From Frigoribacterium faeni (lineage in GTDB: Bacteria > Actinomycetota > Actinomycetes > Actinomycetales > Microbacteriaceae), in contig NZ_BJUV01000032.1 of NCBI RefSeq assembly GCF_007988805.1, positions 1 through 32,358 on the forward strand: a stretch of 32,358 bases of DNA, written 5' to 3'. Each line of letters begins with the position of its first letter. The first letter of the stretch is position 1. Below are positions 6,371 to 10,481 of this stretch, one piece after another. Below the pieces are notes generated by a model, which was given only the letters and a program-made list of their open reading frames with translations, did not search any database and was not told the DNA's origin. Position numbers and translations under genes: made by a program.

Positions 6371-7366
6371 ATGTTGACCACCACACCCCCCGAGGGCGCT
6401 CAGCTCGACGCCGCCCTGGCCCCCATCCGCCGCGCCGTCGTCGCGCAGGCCCGCACCCGTCGCCGCGTCCGCCGCTGGGGCTTCGCCACGGCCGGCGCGG
6501 CGCTCGCGCTCAGCTGCGGCCTCGTCGCCCTCAACCTCGTCGGCGTGAGCCCTCTCGCCGGTCTCGACGGGAGCCGAGGAGGCGCGACCGCCGAGGCCGC
6601 GGAGCTCCTGGACGACGCGGCCACGCTCTCCATCGGCGCCAGCGACCCCGTCGTCGGCCCGGGGCAGTATCTGAGAATCGAGACGAAGTCGAACTCGATC
6701 GGCTCGTTCGGGCTGCCCGACGGCACGATGTTCGCGGCCGCCGTGCCCGAGACCAGCACGGTCTACGAGCCGGCTGACCCCGAGGCGGACTGGGTGCTGG
6801 TGCGGAAGTCGGGCGAGCCCACCGCCTTCTACCCGGCCGCCGAGGCCGAGCGCTGGGCCGCCGAGTACGCGGCCATCGGCACGCCCTACCCCGAGGGCAC
6901 GATCCGCGCGCAGGACGGCGCCTTCTACGGCCCGGAGCCCTGGGCCGACCCCGACGTCGAGTCGATGCCGACCGACGATCCCCAGAAGACCCTCGCCTGG
7001 TTCGACGACCGCTACACCGGCGGCTCGTCCAACAAGGCGGAGGACACCTTCGTCCGTGCGACCGATCTGCTGCGTCAGGGGACGGTGAGGGCCGACCAGC
7101 GCGCCGCGATCTACGGGATGCTCACCCTCGTGCCCGGCGTGACGATCACCGATGCGACGGCGACCCTCGACGGTCGTGCCGGGGTGGCGCTGGGCCGCGA
7201 CGAGCCCGCCCGCGACGGCGAGCGGCAGGAGATCGTCATCGACCCCGAGACGGGCGCCTTCATCGGCGAGCGCTTCCTGGCCGGCACCGAGGGGTACGAG
7301 GTCCCGGCCGGCGAGGTCACCGGGTCGACCTCCGTCACGACGACCGTCGTCGACACCGCGCCGTAG
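6371..7366 (+). CDS. CU044_5270 family membrane protein (probable sigma-factor partner)
   Basis: A 331-aa protein with an N-terminal cytoplasmic part of about 35 residues rich in Arg, one membrane helix (about 38-58), and an outer domain of about 270 residues holding family-like stretches (GQYLRIET, LRQGTVRADQRAAIYGMLTLVPGV, QEIVIDPETGAFIGER). The CU044_5270 family is typically encoded right after an ECF sigma factor in Actinobacteria; the layout suggests a signal-sensing or anti-sigma role, which is inference. It lacks an obvious zinc-binding anti-sigma HxxxCxxC motif in the short N-terminus. The start ATG at 6371 is preferred over an in-frame TTG at 6359. Contains one copy of the GAGGAGGCGCG word (6576-6586). 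Confidence 0.8.
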   Translation: MLTTTPPEGAQLDAALAPIRRAVVAQARTRRRVRRWGFATAGAALALSCGLVALNLVGVSPLAGLDGSRGGATAEAAELLDDAATLSIGASDPVVGPGQYLRIETKSNSIGSFGLPDGTMFAAAVPETSTVYEPADPEADWVLVRKSGEPTAFYPAAEAERWAAEYAAIGTPYPEGTIRAQDGAFYGPEPWADPDVESMPTDDPQKTLAWFDDRYTGGSSNKAEDTFVRATDLLRQGTVRADQRAAIYGMLTLVPGVTITDATATLDGRAGVALGRDEPARDGERQEIVIDPETGAFIGERFLAGTEGYEVPAGEVTGSTSVTTTVVDTAP

Positions 7367-7380
7367 CCATCACGACGCCC

Positions 7381-7423
7381 GGGCCCTCATTCACGTTCAG
7401 CCGCTGAACGTAAATGAGGGCCC
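7381..7423. repeat. 43-bp near-perfect palindrome (possible terminator)
   Basis: Two 21-base arms (7381-7401 and 7403-7423) are reverse complements with a single mismatch and one base between them; the arm begins gggccctcattcacgttc. It lies 14 bases after the stop of the CU044_5270-type gene. In RNA it would form a very stable hairpin and could end transcription or protect the 3' end, although no run of U follows it. Confidence 0.88.
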
Positions 7424-7433
7424 AGGCTGTTCG

Positions 7434-7586
7434 CACCACGAGCGCGTCGAGGCGGTGATGGCCGATCTGATCGCCTTCATCGGTCGGCGCGACATCCCCG
7501 GGCCGATCCATTCGGCTCTCGCGCATGCCCGGTTCGAGACGATCCACCCGTTCCCCGACGGCAACGGACGTACAGGCCGAGCGCCT
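7434..7586 (+). pseudogene. Fic family protein remnant (core motif only)
   Basis: One frame reads about 50 residues of a Fic domain: HERVEAVMADLIAF, then IHSALAHARFETI, then the signature HPFPDGNGRTGRA at 7545-7583, matching the Fic catalytic motif HPFx(D/E)GNGRxxR. Fic proteins transfer AMP or other groups to target hydroxyls. There is no start codon, no N-terminal or C-terminal remainder, and the similarity stops abruptly where the convergent 103-aa gene ends (7585). The upstream edge is 10 bases from the palindrome at 7381-7423. This is a decayed gene fragment, not a working enzyme. Confidence 0.8.
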
Positions 7587-7896
7587 ACGGGTTCTCGTCC
7601 TCCATGGGGCGGCGCTGCTCGATGATGCGATCGCCGTCGGTGGCCGACCAGCGGGCGACCAGTCGTCGTGCGATGGGCAGCGGGCACGGGATCGTCAGCG
7701 AGCCCGTGCGGCTCACGATCGTCAGCCGGGCGGCTCCGGCACGGCCGCGGTGCCACATGCGCGAGATGTCCATCGCGACTCCGCCGTCGCCGCCGTCTTC
7801 GCGGCGGGGCTCGGTCATCTCGAGGGTGAGGCGGTTGCCCAGCACGCTGACACGGTAGACGACCCCGTCGTCGCTCCAGGTCTCGGCGTTTCCCAC
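7585..7896 (-). CDS. Hypothetical protein, putatively SOS (LexA) controlled
   Basis: A 103-aa protein of no family I recognise. It is predicted mostly beta in the first third (VVYRVSVLGNRLTLEM), acidic in the middle (EPRREDGGDGG), then basic. It has no signal peptide or membrane helix. The GTG start at 7896 is exactly six bases after a TATCGT -10 element, so the message is probably leaderless. Between that -10 and a TTTACA -35 sits the palindrome CGAACGGGTGTTCG, matching the actinobacterial LexA box. The gene is therefore likely induced by DNA damage. It is not next to any repair gene. Its 3' end abuts the Fic remnant. Confidence 0.72.
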   Translation of the reverse strand: MGNAETWSDDGVVYRVSVLGNRLTLEMTEPRREDGGDGGVAMDISRMWHRGRAGAARLTIVSRTGSLTIPCPLPIARRLVARWSATDGDRIIEQRRPMEDENP

Positions 7897-7902
7897 CCGA
7901 CA

Positions 7903-7932
7903 ACGATACGAACGGGTGTTCGATGCTGTAAA
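7903..7932 (-). promoter_or_regulatory. LexA-type operator inside a leaderless promoter
   Basis: On the minus strand: -35 TTTACA (7932-7927), 18 bases, -10 TATCGT (7908-7903), six bases, GTG start (7896). The LexA-type palindrome CGAACGGGTGTTCG (7909-7922 in plus-strand reading) fills most of the -35/-10 spacer and touches the -10. Both half sites CGAAC/GTTCG are perfect, with the 4-base spacing known for the Gram-positive/actinobacterial SOS box. Confidence 0.8.
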
Positions 7933-7996
7933 GCCAGGCCACCCTCAGTCGGGGTCGACATGCGTAAATCGGACAGCCGAGGAGGCGCGGCGCCCG

Positions 7997-8025
7997 TTGT
8001 GCGGGCCCGGCGACCGTCGTAGTGT
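7997..8025 (+). promoter_or_regulatory. Promoter of the leaderless upstream ORF before the FBP gene
   Basis: TTGTGC (7997-8002), 17 bases, TAGTGT (8020-8025), then six bases to the GTG at 8032. Spacing fits a housekeeping-type promoter whose transcript would start at the GTG itself. One copy of the GAGGAGGCGCGG word (7979-7990) lies just upstream. Confidence 0.65.
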
Positions 8026-8031
8026 TCCCCC

Positions 8032-8109
8032 GTGACCATCCCCCTCCGCACTGCGACGCCCGTCGGGCGTGAGGGGGTCGTCGGCGCCTTCTGCGCCGAC
8101 TGCAGGTAG
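8032..8109 (+). CDS. 25-aa leader peptide ORF with C-terminal Cys-x-x-Cys
   Basis: GTG to TAG, reading MTIPLRTATPVGREGV then VGAFCADCR. The start is placed where transcription should begin (TAGTGT plus six bases), so translation would be leaderless. Codons 21 and 24 are Cys, directly before the stop. The stop overlaps the first of two hairpins that lie between this ORF and the FBP gene 105 bases downstream. The arrangement resembles an attenuation leader in which ribosome position at Cys codons chooses between RNA folds. Being so short, its translation is inferred, not shown. Confidence 0.6.
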   Translation: MTIPLRTATPVGREGVVGAFCADCR

Positions 8110-8180
8110 AGGCGACGCCTCCGATCCATCCGCGCCGCGCCTCCCGGGCCCTCCATCCCGGTCGAGGCCGAGGCGGCGCG
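8109..8180 (+). promoter_or_regulatory. Possible attenuator: mutually exclusive hairpins before FBP gene
   Basis: Hairpin 1 pairs GAGGC (8109-8113) with GCCTC (8117-8121). Hairpin 2 pairs the CGCGCCGC..GCCTC stretch (8131-8143) with GAGGCGGCGCG (8170-8180), with a small bulge. The same GAGGC and GCCTC blocks can swap partners, so the two folds can exclude each other. This is what an attenuator needs; function is inference. Confidence 0.5.
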
Positions 8181-8214
8181 TCCCCTCCTGCCTGCTCACA
8201 CGAGAGAGATCACC

Positions 8215-8739
8215 ATGCTTCCCCTGACCGAGAAGACCATCCGCGCGTCGTTCGCCAACGCGAGTCGCCGCGAGACTGCCGACCTGACCCTGCCCGCCCG
8301 TTTCGACGAGATCGACTGGGCCGACCTCGAGTTCCTCGGCTGGCGCGACCCGAAGCTGGCACGCCGCGCCTACGTCGTCGTGCCGCTGGGCGCTGTGCCC
8401 GAGACCGGGAGCACGGCGGATGAGCCCGGGCTGATCGGCGTCGTGCTGAAGCAGGCCGAGGCCTCCCCCCGGGCGCGCGCCCAGTGCACCTGGTGCCAGG
8501 ACGTCCGACTGCCGAACGACGTCGTCTTCTACAGCGCCAAGCGGGCCGGTGCGGCGGGTCGCAACGGCGACACCGTGGGCACGCTGGTCTGCGCCGACTT
8601 CGAGTGCTCGGCGAACGTGCACGTCGCGCCGCCCGAGGCCTACCTCGGCTTCGACGTCGAGGCCGCCCGCGCCGAGCGCATCGCGAGCCTGCGCGACCGG
8701 GCGGCCGGCTTCGCCCGGAACGTCGCCCAGCGCACCTGA
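8215..8739 (+). CDS. FBP domain protein (FusB-like treble-clef zinc finger, EF-G binding)
   Basis: A 174-aa protein of the FBP family, named for the FusB/FusC-type C-terminal zinc finger. FusB proteins bind elongation factor G and free it from stalled, fusidic-acid-locked ribosomes; actinobacterial relatives carry the finger and are thought to bind EF-G too. Four metal-ligand Cys are seen: C91 and C94 (CTWC), C126 and C131 (VCADFEC). The N-terminal half is helical with WADLEFLGWRDPKLARRAY. The ATG at 8215 follows the ribosome site GAGAGAG (8202-8208). Expression may be set by the Cys-ended leader ORF and hairpins upstream. A long palindrome begins 34 bases after the stop. Confidence 0.85.
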   Translation: MLPLTEKTIRASFANASRRETADLTLPARFDEIDWADLEFLGWRDPKLARRAYVVVPLGAVPETGSTADEPGLIGVVLKQAEASPRARAQCTWCQDVRLPNDVVFYSAKRAGAAGRNGDTVGTLVCADFECSANVHVAPPEAYLGFDVEAARAERIASLRDRAAGFARNVAQRT

Positions 8740-8773
8740 CCCGGGCCGGCCGGCCCCGGCCCCGGCCCGGATG

Positions 8774-8833
8774 AAACCACGTTCCGGCGATGAAACCACG
8801 TCGTTCCGTGGTTCCATCGCCGGAACGTGGTTT
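8774..8833. repeat. 60-bp palindrome, family with the one at 32160
   Basis: Arms 8774-8800 and 8807-8833 (27 bases) are reverse complements with one mismatch, loop of six. Each arm holds the block AAACCACG twice. The palindrome at 32160-32223 has the same internal blocks, so the two are one family. It lies between the FBP gene and the convergent GMC gene and could stop transcription from either side. Confidence 0.9.
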
Positions 8834-8834
8834 C

Positions 8835-8918
8835 GCACCGGGCAAACCCGCACCGGGCAGCCGGCACCGGGCCAACCCGCACCGGGCAGCCGGCACCGGG
8901 CCAGCCCGCACCGGCCCC
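8835..8918. repeat. 29-bp GC-rich tandem repeat
   Basis: Nearly three copies of a 29-base unit made of two halves (gcaccgggccaaccc and gcaccgggcagccg). It fills the rest of the gap before the GMC gene stop at 8925. No role is evident. Confidence 0.75.
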
Positions 8919-8924
8919 GCCGGC

Positions 8925-10481
8925 TCAGGCCGCGGTGCGCGCCGCCAGGAACCTCTCCGCCGTCCGCAGCCCCAGCGCCATGATCGTCAGCGCCGGGTTG
9001 GCGACGACCGCGCTCGGGAACACCGAGTTGTCGCACACCCAGAGGTTCGGCACGTCGAAGCTGCGTCCGTCGGCGTCGACCACGGCGTCCGCCGGGTCGT
9101 CGCCCATGCGGCAGGTGCCGATCGTGTGCGCGGTGCGCTGGAGCACCATCGTGTCGATGGCGCCGGCCGCCTCGACGATCGCCGTCATGGTGCGGATGGC
9201 GTGCTCGTCGATGGCCTCCTCGTTCGGCCCGGTGCTGAACGAGACGACGGCCTTGGGGATGCCGAACTCGTCGAGCTCGTCGGACAGCTCGAGTCTGTTC
9301 ACGTCGCTCGGCAGGCACTCGGCGTTGATGCCGACCCCGGCGAGGTGGCGGTAGTCCTCCATCGCCTCGACGATGTCGTCGCCCCAGAGACCGGCCCCGC
9401 GGGCGAGCGTCGTGGCGAGGGTGAGCGGCATGACGCCGAGGCTCTGGATGAGGTAGCCGCCGACGAAGTCGGCGTCGTCGGGGCGCAGGGTGTCCTCGGT
9501 GATGATCGACGACGGGTAGCCGCGGTGGCTGCGGATCTCCTCGGGGAACCGGCCCCAGACCTGGGTCGCCCCGTGCGCCATGAAGTTGCGACCCACCTGG
9601 CCGCTGCTGTTGGCGAGTCCGGTGTGCAGCAGCAGGCGCGGAGTCTCGATGCCGCCGGCGCAGAGGAAGAGCGCCCTGGTGCGCTGCCGGTGCTCGACGC
9701 CGTCGCGCGTGTAGACGACGGCCGAGACCTCGCCGGCCTCGTCGAGCTCGATGCCGTGCACCATCGACCCGGGGCGGATCTCGGCGCCGTGCGCGACGGC
9801 GGATGGCAGGTAGGTGGTGTCCATGCTGACCTTGGCGCCGTTCCGACAGCCCTGGTGGCAGCTGCCGCAGTTGACGCAGGCGTGCCGGGTGCCGACGTGC
9901 TCCTGCTGGCGGTCGACGGTCGTGACGGCGACGGGGCCGTCGGTCGCCCGGATGCCGAGGGCCTCGCAGCCGCGGATCATCATGTCGGACGACGCGTTGC
10001 GCGGAGCAGGCGGCAGCGCGTAGCGCCGCGAGGGATCCCACGGGTAGTCGGCGGGGCCCGCGACGCCGACGAAGGCCTCGACGCGTTCGATGTACTCGAT
10101 CAGCTCGGCGTGCTCGATCGGCCAGTCGACGCCCTCGCCGGTGAGGCTCTTCAGCTTCAGGTCGCGTTCGTCGGGTCGCGGGGTGAACGCGCCCCAGTGC
10201 AGCGTCGACCCGCCGACGCCCTTGCCGCTGTTGTTGAGGCCGAAGGCGGTCGGCTTCTCGCCGCTGCTGAGGCGTTCGTCCATCCAGTTGATGGCGACGG
10301 CCTCGGTCTCGTCCTGCGTGAACTGCTCGGGGTCGAAGTTCGCCCCCGCCTCGAGCGCCACGACGTGCAGGCCCTGGGCGGCGAGCGTGCTGAGGATCGG
10401 CGCCCCGCCGGCCCCGGTGCCGATCACGACGGCGTCGACGATCTCGTCGTCGGAGTAGGTGGTCATCTGGTCGAGGTTCAT
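8925..10481 (-). CDS. GMC family oxidoreductase (gluconate/sugar dehydrogenase-type large subunit)
   Basis: A 518-aa FAD enzyme of the glucose-methanol-choline family. The FAD dinucleotide motif is GTGAGGAP at 21-28; the GGSTLHWGAF segment follows at about 90-100; a Cys-rich stretch CVNCGSCHQGC lies at about 200-212; the C-terminal domain has HTIGTCRMG and NPALTIMALG, carrying the catalytic His/Asn pair expected in the family. Such enzymes with a separate small subunit oxidise sugars, sugar acids or other alcohols and hand electrons to a membrane acceptor; substrate unknown. The start ATG at 10481 overlaps the stop of the upstream subunit gene (ATGA). No twin-arginine signal is visible, so export would depend on a partner or does not occur. 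Confidence 0.87.
   Translation of the reverse strand: MNLDQMTTYSDDEIVDAVVIGTGAGGAPILSTLAAQGLHVVALEAGANFDPEQFTQDETEAVAINWMDERLSSGEKPTAFGLNNSGKGVGGSTLHWGAFTPRPDERDLKLKSLTGEGVDWPIEHAELIEYIERVEAFVGVAGPADYPWDPSRRYALPPAPRNASSDMMIRGCEALGIRATDGPVAVTTVDRQQEHVGTRHACVNCGSCHQGCRNGAKVSMDTTYLPSAVAHGAEIRPGSMVHGIELDEAGEVSAVVYTRDGVEHRQRTRALFLCAGGIETPRLLLHTGLANSSGQVGRNFMAHGATQVWGRFPEEIRSHRGYPSSIITEDTLRPDDADFVGGYLIQSLGVMPLTLATTLARGAGLWGDDIVEAMEDYRHLAGVGINAECLPSDVNRLELSDELDEFGIPKAVVSFSTGPNEEAIDEHAIRTMTAIVEAAGAIDTMVLQRTAHTIGTCRMGDDPADAVVDADGRSFDVPNLWVCDNSVFPSAVVANPALTIMALGLRTAERFLAARTAA

Follow-up and report, generated by a model that had tools for sequence, protein, structure and literature searches.

What does a very short reading frame, lying just ahead of an FBP gene in Frigoribacterium faeni, do for the gene that follows it? 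The window analyzed here is the whole stretch of 32,358 nucleotides of contig NZ_BJUV01000032.1, and the gene presumed to be controlled is a forward-strand gene of the FBP_C family (PF16571; 174 aa) at 8215-8739. The original prediction had placed ahead of it a leaderless ORF of 25 codons with two Cys codons near its end, followed by mutually exclusive hairpins, and had proposed that ribosomes stalled at these codons or by an EF-G drug control FBP. In our comparison, this observation was partly confirmed and its interpretation was partly supported.

Residues 9-170 of the FBP protein match PF16571 at E 1.7e-49, and a profile of 17 relatives matches one solved structure, FusC (2yb5), over residues 102-201 of its C-terminal part (E 0.0087). 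The single sequence gave no match in the PDB by phmmer and none in NCBIfam. The name EF-G-binding is derived from the distant relation to FusC and from Pfam, and we refer to the product as a putative EF-G-binding protein. By reading, its Cys pattern is CxxC-x31-Cx4C; that of FusB is CxxC-x23-Cx5C (PMC3352095). The N-terminal four-helix bundle of FusB/FBP is not present in the 174-aa protein, in which the Pfam match fills residues 9-170 and thus leaves no room for a second domain. The predicted structure of the protein was poor (mean pLDDT 41).

The predicted leaderless leader ORF (8032-8109, forward strand, GTG start) translates as VTIPLRTATPVGREGVVGAFCADCR*, with its TAG stop at 8107-8109. 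Reading of the window verified the promoter elements originally proposed, namely TTGTGC at 7997-8002, a 17-nt spacer, the -10 box TAGTGT at 8020-8025, and GTG at 8032. A total of 144 loci (one genome being present twice, under its name and under a handle) yielded 133 distinct leaders, and the -10 box, the start, the ORF end, and a hairpin inside the ORF recur in these 133 beyond chance, which bears out the ORF at 8032 ahead of the FBP gene. The proposed -35 element did not hold up as a conserved feature, since a TTG at a spacing of 16-18 nt occurs in 7 of 131 leaders; no -35 consensus was found across the leaders, and a generic promoter scan of 7000-9500 did not pick up the leader promoter. 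The -10 box is TANNNT-like, and its distance to the start codon, measured in 126 leaders, is 6 nt in 84, 7 nt in 35, and 8 nt in 7. Such short distances predict a transcript that starts on or beside the GTG/ATG and is apparently leaderless.

In 142 of the 144 loci, a TANNNT box (or one that begins with GA) is followed at 5-8 nt by an in-frame start codon, and the first automatic start choice alone was in frame in 132 of them compared to 48 expected. GTG serves as the start in 116 leaders and ATG in 17. The ORFs are 15-36 codons long (22-25 codons in 106 of 133), leaders differ in how many codons precede the conserved block and how many it contains, the block varies in length by whole codons, and the N-terminal part is variable in both length and sequence. 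The C-terminus of the 133 leaders is close to (E/G)-V-(V/A)-G-x3-(A/V)-(G/D)-x-Arg, usually with the stop codon next. An SD-like purine block, GG[AG]GGT (8073-8078, forward strand), is present in 125 of 133 leaders and is retained even where the codon shifts from Glu to Gly (GAG 115 and GGG 16 in the codon table). An optional hairpin further upstream, ACGCCC-GTC-GGGCGT (8056-8070, forward strand), is missing from the short-leader group (L007, L009, and L036 in the alignment) and lies outside the RNAalifold consensus. These leader rows are related, so the raw counts are not independent, and the tree-based count described below covers kinship for the hairpin inside the ORF only. Retention of the frame and the start codon argues that the ORF is selected as an ORF, and this conservation also points to its translation. 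As the conserved frame stands ahead of a FBP/FusB-related gene, the ribosome is a likely sensor.

We then asked how closely the leader is tied to FBP. When loci were collected by FBP protein similarity alone, with the motif unused, the leader was present in 21 of 24 loci (including those of Frigoribacterium, Leifsonia, Curtobacterium, Frondihabitans, Clavibacter, Agrococcus, Agromyces, and Microbacterium) and absent at three (L011, L020, and L026). A covariance model (R1) built from 26 leaders matched the host genome strongly at one place only (E 3.3e-17; the second-best match had E 0.04). Among 249 Microbacteriaceae genomes, the 110 strongest matches were inspected, and 96 of them, in 96 distinct genomes, were found upstream of an FBP ORF, with 61-336 nt between the end of the match and the ORF; at E<=1.6e-4 the proportion was 96 of 97. 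The other 14 had no FBP, 13 of them at E>=3e-4 and one (L153) at 9.9e-6. L153 was judged by eye to be coding noise. A second match common to L158, L160, and L161, three genomes of one genus, has no FBP and resembles coding sequence by eye. No instance of the motif ahead of other genes was found in the host genome or in the 110 inspected family loci, and the window stretch was without a match in plasmids. An FBP_C gene is present in 167 of the same 249 genomes, compared to 96 with a leader, and thus many FBP genes lack a detectable leader. Among 20 sampled FBP loci without a model match, 17 had no leader and three had a divergent one (two with AGG).

Beyond the family, 44 of 297 genomes of the order had a match at E<=0.001 (48 matches listed). 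All of the 29 further loci read among these 48 listed matches lie upstream of FBP, 20 of them in four other families (one, six, seven, and six loci in f6, f8, f10, and f16, respectively); L197 has a partial FBP match only. A scan of 246 genomes of the class gave 10 with a match at 1e-4: seven of Microbacteriaceae, one (L237) of another order with both leader and FBP, and two whose matches, near 1e-4, were not at FBP. In the phylum sample, FBP was found in 15 of 246 genomes, and among the 17 loci inspected by eye and with a half-motif pattern, the leader was detected only in L210, a member of Microbacteriaceae. It was not found at the 12 FBP loci of this sample from families f21-f23, and the half-motif pattern alone also matched L203, which has no leader. 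Six leader-less FBP genes of f21 and f23 (L204, L206-L208, L214, and L215) have a GCCTAA...TTAGGC palindrome just upstream, beside what appears by eye to be a divergent TetR-type gene.

In a tree of 177 FBP proteins, a single clade of 140 holds every one of the 129 leader-bearing proteins together with 11 leader-less ones, and none of the 37 proteins outside that clade has a leader. The leader label changes 10 times on this tree (at least six changes being forced by well-supported branches) compared to 42 in shuffles, and the leader is thereby placed at one origin on the FBP tree, whose bootstrap had not settled and whose leader-less rows are a non-random sample. Another FBP_C gene, of about 160 aa and in a separate clade, is also found in the host and its genus (L002, L038-L052). 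No short leaderless ORF was found within 400 nt upstream of this second type at any of the 16 loci; five of them show a loose left-half pattern within 600 nt, and none has the full motif. Two loci within the leader-bearing clade, L227 and L228, have no leader and lie, as judged by eye, close behind a transporter-like coding sequence.

The codon of the terminal Arg of the leader is AGG at 8104-8106 (forward strand) in the window. In 128 of 133 leaders, an Arg codon follows the conserved Glu/Gly at a distance of 8-12 codons, and it is always AGG (78) or AGA (50). The stop follows directly in 107 of the 128, as TAG in 87, TAA in 10, and TGA in 10. Elsewhere in the same leaders, Arg is encoded by CGN 206 times and by AGR 12 times (12/218). 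In the FBP genes downstream, counted with three starts that are not start codons and at least one short reading frame of 34 codons, AGR accounts for 85 of 2400 Arg codons (3.5%), and the stops are TGA in 96, TAG in 31, and TAA in 6. Because model R1 itself contained the AGR codon, the figure of 128/133 is partly biased; that from the loci found by FBP similarity, all 21 of which have an in-frame AGA/AGG at or near the stop, is unbiased. Moreover, two leaders that are frame-shifted across the hairpin (L150 and L196) keep an AGA near the stop in their own frame. Five leaders have no such Arg: L144, L149, L151, and L152, of one FBP clade, end in ADDD/ADGD, and L157 ends in GGIT.

Inside the ORF, a conserved hairpin of 8 bp, GTCGGCGC-CTTCT-GCGCCGAC, is formed by 8080-8087 and 8093-8100 (forward strand); neither this hairpin nor the AGR codon was part of the original prediction. 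Pair 13-19 (8087-8093) is a standard pair in 70 of 98 distinct equal-length blocks compared to 42.6 in shuffles (0/2000 as high), and pair 7-25 (8081-8099) is paired in 96 of 98 compared to 89.9 (1/2000 as high); the other six pairs are nearly invariant and carry little information. Changes were also counted on the FBP tree for 107 of the 129 tree leaders, those of standard length. Pair 13-19 underwent 25 double changes, of which 12 were pair-to-pair, versus 0-3 at six register-shifted neighbors, and pair 7-25 retained pairing in 31 of 33 changes. Counting against the hairpin, pair 13-19 was broken 14 times, and 13 of its 25 double changes were not pair-to-pair. Taken together, the behavior of these two pairs suggests that an RNA hairpin is selected beside the reading frame, and it appears to be so. 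The hairpin also partly explains why a Cys codon stands at 8092. Of the standard-length leaders, 22 have Cys at this position (R-4), and every one of them uses the G of its TGC in a C-G pair of the hairpin.

The covarying hairpin could mark an RNA that acts through its structure, whether riboswitch-like or as a hairpin bound by a protein or an RNase, with the ORF in a secondary role; nucleotides conserved at positions where a change alters the amino acid, as for Glu/Gly at the SD-like block, would fit this as well. We regard this explanation as improbable: the start and frame are kept despite the variable N-terminal part, the length of the block changes by whole codons, L150 and L196 keep AGA in their shifted frame, the window has no Rfam match at gathering scores, and the conserved core is, in our judgement, small for a ligand pocket.

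Between the leader stop and the FBP gene, the window has an untranslated C-rich spacer of 105 nt (8110-8214, forward strand), which by its composition and folding is a candidate Rho-loading or terminator region. Spacers at the 133 loci are 49-339 nt long (median 130) and consist of 44% C and 30% G, with C exceeding G in 131 of 133 (mean skew 0.21). Upstream of the leader promoters, C exceeds G in 64 of 133 (mean -0.01), and in 86 other 5' regions, taken from ORFs that were chosen by length and GC3 and may include wrong ones, 48 are positive (mean 0.017). The bias is partly shared with the FBP genes, 125 of 133 of which show it more weakly (mean 0.06 versus 0.21). Folding of the first 70 nt after the stop, compared to shuffles at every second locus (67 of 133), gave a mean z of -1.07 versus -0.06 in the control, with 14 of 67 loci below -2 versus 5 of 67 controls. 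A perfect hairpin of at least 7 pairs occurs near the stop in 70 of 133 loci compared to 38 in one shuffle each. Double changes were seen at 5 of 10 pairs of the post-stop hairpin in 12 loci, and as these loci were hand-picked for a strong-looking hairpin, such covariation is only suggestive. According to PMC12121999, a rut site is high in C relative to G and is not extensively structured. The spacer folds better than chance, which speaks against a Rho reading.

Leaderless starts are also common in the wider actinobacteria. They are common in mycobacteria (PMC4633059), and the FBP ribosome sites look weak by eye, so that the leader might simply deliver ribosomes to FBP, or cap its expression, by translational coupling or reinitiation and without any sensing. 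Such coupling seems rather unlikely to us, as spacers with a median of 130 nt are long for reinitiation and as the hairpin, the AGR codon, and the C-rich spacer would be left unexplained.

A further explanation is translational attenuation of the fusB type, in which a ribosome stalled by fusidic acid, or by a similar blocker of EF-G, would let alternative hairpins expose the ribosome site of FBP. In PMC12008383 and PMC3352095, staphylococcal fusB is described as controlled in this way, being induced when fusidic acid stalls ribosomes on its leader, and the target here is distantly related to the C-terminal domain of FusC. Both structures originally proposed for such an exchange are found in the window: GAGGC-GAC-GCCTC at 8109-8121, which occurs in one of 133 leaders, that of the window itself, and a second structure, predicted as a stable fold over about 8131-8180. 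Across 67 of the 133 loci, leader elements showed no excess of pairing with their spacers over shuffled ones (mean z -0.22 to +0.18). With its stop hairpin private to the window and its pairing not in excess, the GAGGC/GCCTC exchange was rejected, and fusB-type control is in our opinion quite unlikely. A cysteine-responsive attenuator would be like the leaderless polycysteine uORFs of mycobacteria reportedly described by Canestrari in 2020 (cited in PMC13236596), which likewise are small leaderless ORFs of an actinobacterium that precede a regulated gene, and could draw on the two Cys codons in the window (8092 and 8101). It is very improbable and was rejected, because across the leaders the frame is kept and the two Cys codons are not (6 of 128 leaders have both, and 37 have any Cys), the conserved codon is the AGR of Arg, the TGC at R-4 serves the hairpin, the target is different, and FBP is not known to be linked to sulphur.

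We consider a ribosome-sensing attenuator controlling FBP to be, on balance, the somewhat favored explanation. Its layout (the conserved frame, the apparently leaderless arrangement, the covarying hairpin, the AGR codon, the C-rich spacer, and the link to FBP) was compared directly among loci; from it we infer the control itself, including translation, pausing, the block by Rho or a hairpin, the inducer, the direction of control, and the action of FBP on EF-G. In such an attenuator, transcription would start on or next to the GTG and a ribosome would translate the leader of about 24 codons, and how fast it moves over the last codons, where a rare AGR is usually followed by a UAG/UAA stop, would set FBP expression. 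By default, the ribosome would terminate and depart, leaving the hairpin in the ORF and the post-stop region free, and the C-rich spacer (through Rho) or the post-stop hairpin would halt transcription or lower FBP translation. If EF-G function, AGR decoding, or termination were slow, the ribosome would rest on the Arg and stop codons and, judging from its usual footprint size, would cover the right arm of the 8080-8100 hairpin together with the beginning of the spacer, so blocking both, and FBP would be made. Fusidic acid or another inhibitor of EF-G or the ribosome is a possible inducer. Several results count against an attenuator: no conserved alternative pairing that could provide an RNA switch step was found, predicted pairing around the FBP start hardly changed with a stalled ribosome (from 0.59 to 0.48 in 65 loci), no leader was detected for 11 FBP proteins of the leader clade, and the Arg is missing from five leaders.

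Among known systems, TnaC of the E. coli tryptophanase operon is a leader of about 24 residues with Rho-dependent attenuation, in which, according to PMC8429421, the ribosome is held while the stop codon occupies its A site, masking a rut site behind the stop so that transcription proceeds. The FBP leader fits this plan in part, sharing the length of about 24 residues, the proposed hold-up with the stop in the A site, and the candidate Rho region directly after the stop, while it differs in its predicted leaderless start, the hairpin in the ORF, the terminal AGR Arg (Pro in TnaC), and the FBP target. By analogy, it resembles both TnaC and the staphylococcal fusB leader in function; the latter likewise precedes the gene of an EF-G-binding protein (FBP being a putative one), but the target here matches only the C-terminal domain of FusC and no exchange hairpins were found. 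Riboregulation by uORFs is also reported for whiB7/wblC (cited in PMC13236596) and described for toiL-topAI in PMC12121999, where the uORF reads translation stress and Rho terminates transcription in topAI; these systems are similar in that a uORF reading translation stress controls a downstream gene, and different in their target. Among the open-licence papers listed, we found none on the FBP leader element, as judged by title, and none on chromosomal actinobacterial FBP proteins.

It is possible, though we hold this as a tentative proposal, that the leader represents an undescribed arrest or attenuator family, in which a nascent leader, a covarying hairpin re-forming behind the ribosome, and a near-obligatory rare AGR codon beside a UAG/UAA stop would directly sense the speed of EF-G translocation or of release factors in actinobacteria and, once that speed drops, lead to the making of an EF-G-binding rescue protein. 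If this is true, the element would be an autonomous housekeeping feedback on EF-G and not a drug-resistance switch. A conserved switch, apparently read by the ribosome, ahead of FBP suggests that the FBP level must follow the state of translation, and the leader would thus offer a direct handle on what FBP proteins do. It would also be a compact case of a frame, a rare codon, and an RNA hairpin that are jointly selected over several actinobacterial families.

Additional features were observed around the leader and the FBP gene. Upstream, a forward-strand ORF at 7152-7622 matches the Fic/DOC family (E 1.2e-10), ends soon after the HPFPDGNGRTGR motif, and looks truncated by eye. Downstream of the FBP gene, an inverted repeat at 8773-8834, with 28-nt arms that are 96% complementary and 6 nt apart, is possibly a terminator or a repeat remnant. 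It is followed at 8834-8914 by a tandem array of a 29-nt unit in 2.8 copies (96% matches) with a 15-nt sub-unit.
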